Part shown: positions 19,724 through 21,553 of the stretch, one piece after another
How the letters are laid out: every line of letters begins with the position of its first letter
How positions within the stretch are numbered: the first letter of the stretch is position 1
Assembly (NCBI RefSeq): GCF_001644605.1
Contig: NZ_CP011388.1
Span: forward strand, 390,440 to 454,439
Source: Paenibacillus swuensis
Lineage (GTDB): Bacteria; Bacillota; Bacilli; Paenibacillales; DY6
Length of the DNA: 64,000 nucleotides
Reading direction: 5' to 3'
Notes under the pieces: generated by a model
Seen by the model: only the letters and a program-made list of their open reading frames with translations
Database searches by the model: none
What the model was told of the DNA's origin: nothing
Translations under genes and position numbers: made by a program

Positions 19724-20374
19724 ATGCGATTTGATTTTGAACAACAATTTACTTTGTGGATGGAGGCATTGGTTTCCGCAGAAGTGAATCCCAGAAGGCG
19801 AGAATTATTGTTGAAAGGTTTAGGTCATGGAAGTGTAGAGTTTTTAAGACAAATTTGGTTTCCGATTGTTGGTCATTTTGATCATTTGCAGCCGGAATGG
19901 GAGGTGCGTGACTTTGGAAACGGGTATCGTTATATTGACTTTGCCTACCTTCCCGGGGGCCGTAAAGGGGCCATTGAAGTTCATGGGTTTGCCTCGCACG
20001 CCAGGGATTTGGATGTTCGCAGATTTAAAGATCTGTGCTACCGCCAAGGATATTTGGGTTTGGATGATTGGACTTTCTTGCCTGTTGCTTACCCTGCCAT
20101 CATGGACGAACCTAAACATTGTCAGCAAATCGTTTTGTCGTTTATAGGCAAATTTCTGGCTGTGGACGTCCATGCTTCATTAGATTGGCTGGAAGCCGAA
20201 ACGGTTCGGTTGGCCCGCCGTCTCCTGCGCCCTTTCACTCCGGATGAACTATGTGCACATTTGCGTATTACCAAGCAGCACAGCCGACGTTTATTATCCA
20301 AGCTTGTGGAATTAAAAATTCTTAAAGTAGCAAGCGGAACGGTTCGGTATCGTACATATCAACTGATTTATTGA
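19724..20374 (+). CDS. DUF559/Vsr-like nuclease-fold protein with C-terminal winged helix
   Basis: A 216-residue protein that I do not recognise as a named family. The middle part has the order YIDFAYL (D72), then KGAIEVHGF (E85, H87), then a His (H92) and a RRFKDLCYRQGYLGLDDWTFLPV segment. This resembles DUF559/Vsr-type PD-(D/E)xK nucleases, with His in place of the usual second acidic residue or Lys. Residues ~165-216 (PFTPDELCAHLRITKQHSRRLLSKLVELKIL) look like a winged helix-turn-helix. The ribosome-binding site is AAAGGGTG. A promoter and a terminator-like leader precede it, and the 1.2-kb repeat array follows directly. Nuclease activity is inference. Confidence 0.6.
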   Translation: MRFDFEQQFTLWMEALVSAEVNPRRRELLLKGLGHGSVEFLRQIWFPIVGHFDHLQPEWEVRDFGNGYRYIDFAYLPGGRKGAIEVHGFASHARDLDVRRFKDLCYRQGYLGLDDWTFLPVAYPAIMDEPKHCQQIVLSFIGKFLAVDVHASLDWLEAETVRLARRLLRPFTPDELCAHLRITKQHSRRLLSKLVELKILKVASGTVRYRTYQLIY

Positions 20375-20415
20375 TTTTACAACAAAATAGGCTCTTTGTG
20401 CTTATGCTGTGGTGC

Positions 20416-20531
20416 TGGGGGCTGAGGGCTGGGGTGCTGGGTTGGTGTGCTGGGGCTGGGTGTCGGGGCTGGGGTGCTGGGTGTTGGGTGCTGGGTGCTG
20501 GGTGTTGGGTGCTGGGTGCTGGGTGCTGGGG
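20416..20531 (+). repeat. G-run tract, 7-bp TGCTGGG-type tandem repeat
   Basis: About 116 bp made mostly of TGCTGGG/TGTTGGG units, with 16 runs of three or more Gs separated mostly by 2-4 nt on the plus strand. The spacing satisfies the usual G-quadruplex pattern many times over. The complementary strand gives a spurious Pro/Gln/His-rich ORF. Each unit of the array that follows contains a single-copy form of this motif (GTGCTTGGGTGCTGGG). Confidence 0.85.
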
Positions 20532-20593: not shown

Positions 20594-21553
20594 CTAACGA
20601 ACTCCAGTGACCTTATTGAGCCAATTTTGGCCACTTTCCCACGCTAACGAACTCCAGACACGCTATTTCATCAAATGCACCCTCGGAATCATCTCTTTTG
20701 ACACTTTAGCGTCACTGGAGTTCCTTAGAATCTAGAATGTGTTCATTTTCATCCATTAGCGTCACTGGGGTTCCTTAGAGATTCAAGAGTTAGAACATTT
20801 CTACTAGTGTGCCATCATTCGGACTCGATTGCTTATGCGCTCGCATGTTTATGTTGTTTAGGTGCTTGGGTGTTATGTGCTATGCACCTTCGTGCTTGGG
20901 TGCTGGGATGCTAATTTGCTGAGTACAGTTACTCTCATTTTCTAACGAACTCCAGTAACCTTATTAAGCCGATTCTGGCCACTTTTCCACGCTAACGAAC
21001 TCCAGACACGCTATTTCATCAAATGCATCCCCGTAATCATCTCTTTAAACACTTTAGCGTCACTGGAGTTCCTTAGAATCTAGAATGTGTTCATTTTCAT
21101 CTATTAGCGTTGCTGGAGTTCCTTAGAGAATCAAGAGCCATCATTCGGACTCGGTTGCTTATGCGCTTGCATGTTTATGTTGTTTAGGTGCTTGGGTGAT
21201 ATGTGCTATGTACCTTCGTGCTTGGGTGCTGGGATGCTAATTTGCTGAGTACAGTTACTCTTATTTTTCTAACGAACTCCAGTGACCTTATTAAGCCGAT
21301 TTTGGCCACTTTCCTACGCTAACGAACCTCAGACACGCTATTTCTCCAAATGTCACCCAGTAATCATCTCTTTAGACACTTTAGCGTTACTGGAGTTCCT
21401 TAGATTCTGGAATGTGTTCATTTTCAGCAAATAGCGTTACTGGAGTTCCTTAGATTCTGGAATGTGTTCATTTTCATCCATTAGCATCACTGAGGTTCCT
21501 TAGAATCCAGCAAGTGTTCATTACAAGCCAATAGCGTTACTGTTGCAGCTTCA
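20594..21553. repeat. inverting array of 22-bp boxes with 28-bp spacers, three ~330-350 bp units
   Basis: Fourteen 22-bp boxes with core CACTGGAGTTCCTTAG or its complement. Complementary-strand boxes start at 20594, 20644, 20942, 20992, 21269 and 21319. Direct-strand boxes start at 20707, 20757, 21055, 21105, 21382, 21432, 21482 and 21532 (the last is degenerate). Neighbouring boxes of one orientation are exactly 50 bp apart, and the first inverted-to-direct distance is 113 bp in all three units. Larger units begin at 20594, 20942 and 21269 (348 and 327 bp). The tails of units 1 and 2 share a ~150-bp sequence ending GAGTACAGTTACTCT. The spacers are related to each other, unlike CRISPR spacers. 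There is no ORF of note in the array. Confidence 0.9.

Follow-up and report, generated by a model that had tools for sequence, protein, structure and literature searches.

Anatomy of the array and of the four-box element

The stretch analysed here (the window) comprises 64,000 nucleotides of the Paenibacillus swuensis chromosome (contig NZ_CP011388.1, positions 390,440 to 454,439 of the forward strand), and positions are those of the window unless a genome is named. Between 20594 and 21553 lie fourteen boxes of 22 bp, which form three tandem copies of one element of ~185 bp. The element consists, in order, of a box on the minus strand, 28 bp, a second minus-strand box, 41 bp, a box on the plus strand, 28 bp and a second plus-strand box, with all arrows pointing outward (<- <- -> ->). 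Element 1 (20594-20778, no strand assigned) is built from the outer left box (20594-20615, minus, TAAGGTCACTGGAGTTCGTTAG), the inner left box (20644-20665, minus, TAGCGTGTCTGGAGTTCGTTAG), the inner right box (20707-20728, plus, TAGCGTCACTGGAGTTCCTTAG) and the outer right box (20757-20778, plus, TAGCGTCACTGGGGTTCCTTAG). Element 2 (20942-21126) has its minus-strand boxes at 20942-20963 and 20992-21013 and its plus-strand boxes at 21055-21076 and 21105-21126; in element 3 (21269-21453) the corresponding boxes lie at 21269-21290, 21319-21340, 21382-21403 and 21432-21453. In the first two units the start-to-start steps are 50, 63 and 50 bp. The third unit has two minus-strand boxes followed by four plus-strand boxes at 50-bp steps, of which the first extra one (21482-21503, plus) arose when the 50-bp box plus spacer was duplicated in tandem, and the second (21532-21553, plus) is degenerate and matches at 15 of 22 positions. 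The step across the inversion is 113 bp in all three units (e.g. 20594 to 20707). The preliminary description of this locus, which had reported the fourteen boxes, their 50-bp period, the flip of strand in each unit, the longer third unit and the constant 113-bp distance, is thus borne out at every point of anatomy.

The unit starts are 348 bp and then 327 bp apart, and the inter-unit sequence of ~130 bp is common to the units: the segment between units 1 and 2 (20811-20941, plus) is 96% identical to 21137-21267 and was evidently tandem-duplicated together with the element. Because the inter-unit sequence was duplicated along with the units, the array is, as judged from sequence comparison, the product of tandem duplication of a single element. 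A CRISPR (clustered regularly interspaced short palindromic repeats) array, already discounted in the preliminary description, is rejected on anatomy, given that the boxes switch strand inside every unit and that spacers from different units are homologous to one another.

The boxes are near-palindromic and follow the consensus TARSG-N7-RRTTCSTTAG, derived from 168 distinct half-elements. Among strong boxes at all collected loci, those on the same strand are 49 (3 cases), 50 (148) or 51 bp (4) apart with one distance of 100 bp, the 50-bp step being near-invariant (148/155), and those on opposite strands are 62/63 bp (47) or 72/73 bp (34) apart with three distances of 94-100 bp; the length of the element is ~185-195 bp across loci. 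In a search of 75 genomes of genus g15 in which any centre of 31-60 bp was allowed, the matches listed have centres of 40/41 bp in two genomes (G067 and G068) and of 50-52 bp in the others. Since these variants are 10 bp apart, they differ by one helical turn. Spacer composition shows A/T peaks at spacer positions 23-26, 30, 41 and 50 and G/C peaks at 35-37 and 45-47, and the ~10-bp distance between the A/T peaks is a periodicity that would be expected of DNA bent around a protein. A second box subtype starts with AAGCG (CT before it: CTAAGCG) in place of TAGCG and keeps the four-box layout; examples in the P. swuensis genome lie at 897682, 1194955, 1243523 and 2107700.

Conservation was compared at three orthologous loci, each from 6-7 species. 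Pairwise identity is 0.94/0.93/0.90 for the boxes, 0.84/0.92/0.78 for the spacers and 0.84/0.81/0.81 for the centre, and on one or both flanks it drops immediately beyond the outer boxes. At one of the loci (locus Z) the spacers are conserved almost as strongly as the boxes.

Distribution, chromosomal placement and gene context

The four-box element occupies ~35 merged loci in the 5.01-Mb genome of P. swuensis (G000). A half-element pattern allowing up to 3 mismatches finds 65 half-elements in this genome and none with the reversed control pattern; across the order, it finds matches in 79 of 392 genomes and 17 of 49 genera, again with none for the control in any genome, and the array is therefore far from a chance arrangement. 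Carriers include Paenibacillus agri, P. montanisoli, P. tundrae, Paenibacillus sp. JJ-223 and Cohnella xylanilytica, in accordance with the earlier suggestion of a dispersed Paenibacillaceae repeat. The boxes and their distances are kept between genera while the spacers are unrelated, and the four-box architecture is common to three families (f1, f5 and f10), likewise with unrelated spacers. We found no description of the element in the open-access papers searched.

In genomes belonging to three families, the elements lie predominantly in the origin-side half of the chromosome. In P. swuensis, where dnaA lies at 1.544 Mb, all 35 merged loci fall between -1.13 and +1.34 Mb of dnaA, 31 of them within the nearer half, and the farthest lies at 0.53 of the origin-to-terminus arm. 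In a genome of another family (G035; dnaA at base 25) 16 of 16 elements lie in the origin half, as do 37 of 45 in G067 (chromosome length taken as 6.91 Mb) and 39 of 49 in G045, both of them Paenibacillus-like genomes, with a one-sided p of ~2e-5 to 2e-6 per genome. An origin at ~2.15 Mb of the P. swuensis genome, guessed from GC skew, was replaced by the dnaA position at 1.54 Mb. The GC skew and the gene strand bias of this chromosome switch at ~2.15 Mb and not at dnaA, which suggests a large inversion adjoining the origin (~1.55-2.15 Mb).

The elements are intergenic, with one overlapping a short open reading frame in P. swuensis. In that genome they are flanked by 9 convergent, 8 co-directional and 0 divergent gene pairs, the background for gaps of at least 250 bp being 25% convergent, 61% co-directional and 14% divergent.

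Two further features border the array in the window. A G-rich minisatellite (20405-20530; unit TGCTGGG, ~18 copies) lies directly upstream of it, and a gene for a 216-aa protein (19724-20374, plus strand) adjoins it; the protein has no Pfam or NCBIfam match and, judged by eye, its sequence suggests a C-terminal winged helix.

Mobility, regulation and pairing potential

The main rival to a protein-docking function is that the element is a selfish or REP-like (repetitive extragenic palindromic) dispersed repeat moved in trans, in which case the geometry would reflect recognition by the mobilising enzyme and the origin bias would be a by-product of gene dosage or gene context. A number of subfamilies have multiple copies in a single genome, and near-identical copies in G038 and G045 are carried as cargo in miniature inverted-repeat transposable elements (MITEs) with the terminal inverted repeats GAGGCTGTCCGAAAAGT / GGGGCTGTCTCAAAAG. 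Cargo copies of this kind (L076-L095 and L109-L113) occur in two genera with similar terminal repeats. REPs are typically inserted between genes, often convergent ones, and the placement of the element, intergenic and often between convergent genes, resembles theirs.

The boxes are also the target of an insertion sequence (IS), as REPs are for some IS110-family elements (discussed in PMC11208160). In P. swuensis a 1.77-kb IS110-family IS (PF01548, PF02371) has four full copies, each of which lies inside a box, at the same position (G000:C1 725601, 1202651, 1582758 and 2231234; L178-L181), the insertion point being CTAA^(S/A)GAAYCCC in each. The longer, 3' non-coding end of this IS contains GGGATTCGTAAG, which is 11/12 identical to the box, a match equalled in 2 of 400 shuffles. 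Given that the bridge RNA of IS1111-group elements is carried on the 3' non-coding side (PMC11208160), GGGATTCGTAAG is possibly the target guide of a bridge RNA.

Several observations stand against a selfish repeat: (i) the visible mobility belongs to the surrounding MITE, and the MITE-borne copies of G045 are divided between the origin half (4) and the terminus half (3; n=7, positions read via the MITE-copy sequence); (ii) elements present as single copies are retained at orthologous positions in different species, with their boxes conserved; (iii) inspection of the single-unit elements of the P. swuensis genome revealed no obvious target-site duplication; (iv) viral contigs, plasmids and phages gave no match to the element; and (v) a dosage gradient would not readily yield the empty terminus half of P. 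swuensis and G035. The element shares with REPs and bacterial interspersed mosaic elements (BIMEs) the many dispersed intergenic copies, the inverted modules and the targeting by IS110-family IS; it differs from them in its origin-side location, in boxes phased by helical turns and in the absence of conserved stem-loop pairing, as seen from the covariation and complementarity analyses below. On balance, we consider a selfish repeat unlikely, while regarding it as the strongest of the competing explanations.

Alternatively, a transposase could bind the four boxes, the element then being a MITE with terminal inverted repeats of the form box-28-box. The inverted symmetry would suit this proposal, as would the outward-pointing boxes right at the edges, and multi-site ends have precedent in transposons such as Tn7 and IS21. 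Inverted boxes thus sit at the element edges, and some of the G038 and G045 copies are themselves enclosed in MITEs whose ends are quite unlike these. Among the loci read, no larger element bounded by such paired boxes was noticed, and no target duplication was seen at the single-unit elements of P. swuensis. The element as the end of an autonomous transposon was rejected when the long box separations examined turned out to be IS110 insertions. We therefore regard transposon ends as improbable. A local operator for the neighbouring genes is equally improbable. The near-palindromic boxes do look like repressor operators, but none of the assigned P. swuensis elements lies between divergent genes, about half lie between convergent ones, and the loci number 16-50 per genome.

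Least probable of all is a structured non-coding RNA or a cruciform extruded from the long inverted repeat, as had been proposed in the preliminary description. A single strand of the element does fold well (z about -7), but this low folding energy follows from the boxes being inverted copies. The covariance check that had been recommended, run on stem positions inside the box, yielded no covariation (mutual information ~0.02), and when left and right halves were compared in their variable middles and in their spacers, halves of one element proved no more complementary than halves of different elements from that genome. A search of Rfam gave nothing above threshold and a single sub-threshold match (E=0.71). 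RNA hairpins and cruciforms are thus unlikely, because the pairing potential is not conserved. An apparent excess similarity of the outer boxes (z 5) vanished or weakened once shuffling was done within each genome, and a recombination substrate, the remaining proposal in the preliminary description, found no positive support.

A putative docking site in the origin domain

The fixed geometry, the helical-turn steps, the conservation of the boxes, the intergenic placement and the origin-side concentration are together best accounted for by a site for a putative origin-marking protein around which DNA is wrapped. We suggest, with moderate confidence, that each element is the DNA docking site of a putative sequence-specific protein; from this we infer, as the step that concerns function, that it is a DNA-wrapping protein by which the origin half is marked. 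In this model, protein dimers occupying the four boxes would wrap the DNA, or bend it, so that a single compact nucleoprotein unit forms. Each chromosome would have 16 to 50 of these units, and they would mark its origin domain, perhaps for segregation, for condensation or for anchoring to the membrane or a pole, the hosts being spore formers. Alternatively, they may serve to keep the division septum off unsegregated origin-side DNA. Copies would spread locally by tandem duplication, as in the window, and sometimes as MITE cargo.

Such a mode of action would be like that of the Noc-binding sites (NBSs) with Noc, the SlmA-binding sites (SBSs) with SlmA, or ram with RacA, but the site differs and the protein most likely does too. 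The element has in common with the Noc system of Bacillus tens of dispersed palindromic sites that are depleted from the terminus and a sequence-specific protein (PMC4726725), the protein being putative for the four-box element. There are ~70 NBSs and 24-52 SBSs, and both are under-represented in the terminus region, Ter (PMC4726725); the depletion from the terminus region, a trait of NBSs, is found for the four-box element as well. Several differences rule out a canonical Noc site. Noc is present in 75 of 75 species of genus g15, with or without elements, as opposed to exact inner pairs in 34, and NBS-like sites occur separately from the four-box elements in the same genomes, those of P. swuensis being spread out with 7 of 13 in the origin half. 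The NBS is one 14-bp palindrome, ATTTCCCGGGAAAT, whereas the element has four 22-bp boxes of other sequence that do not contain this palindrome.

The SBSs of Escherichia coli are likewise dispersed palindromic sites (24-52) that are scarce in Ter, and SlmA binds them as a dimer of dimers (PMC4726725); the element differs from them in sequence, in its four-site architecture and in the phylum in which it occurs. As an analogy only, the ram sites of RacA and the RefZ-binding motifs (RBMs) of B. subtilis are concentrated or placed around the origin, the ram sites being dense near it (PMC6593407), and both are used in chromosome anchoring or septum placement during sporulation (PMC6593407, PMC6657595). 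They are simple motifs, in contrast to a fixed four-box unit.

Several points weigh against a docking site that marks the origin domain. The exact inner pair is present in only 34 of the 75 species of genus g15, and many species are without the element, which the order consequently does not require. Some of the subfamilies, present in multiple copies inside one genome, are plainly dispersed repeats. G045 and G067 each keep 8-10 elements in the terminus half; moreover, they belong to the same genus (g15) and share orthologous elements, so their two tests of placement are not fully independent. Finally, the binding protein is putative and its function is one that we only infer.

Taking these points into account, we tentatively propose, with somewhat less confidence than for the docking site itself, that the elements constitute a previously undescribed chromosome-domain system of the Paenibacillales, in which a four-site DNA-wrapping unit at 16 to 50 mostly origin-half places is bound by a putative protein and has its centre tuned by whole helical turns in each lineage. 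Owing to the fixed geometry and its one-turn steps, the binding complex is open to direct testing, and finding the sites in any genome is easy. If this proposal is correct, a whole order of spore formers would mark the origin half of the chromosome with a type of site and a protein absent from the papers searched, and the system would provide a handle on division, segregation or capture of the spore chromosome outside Bacillus subtilis.
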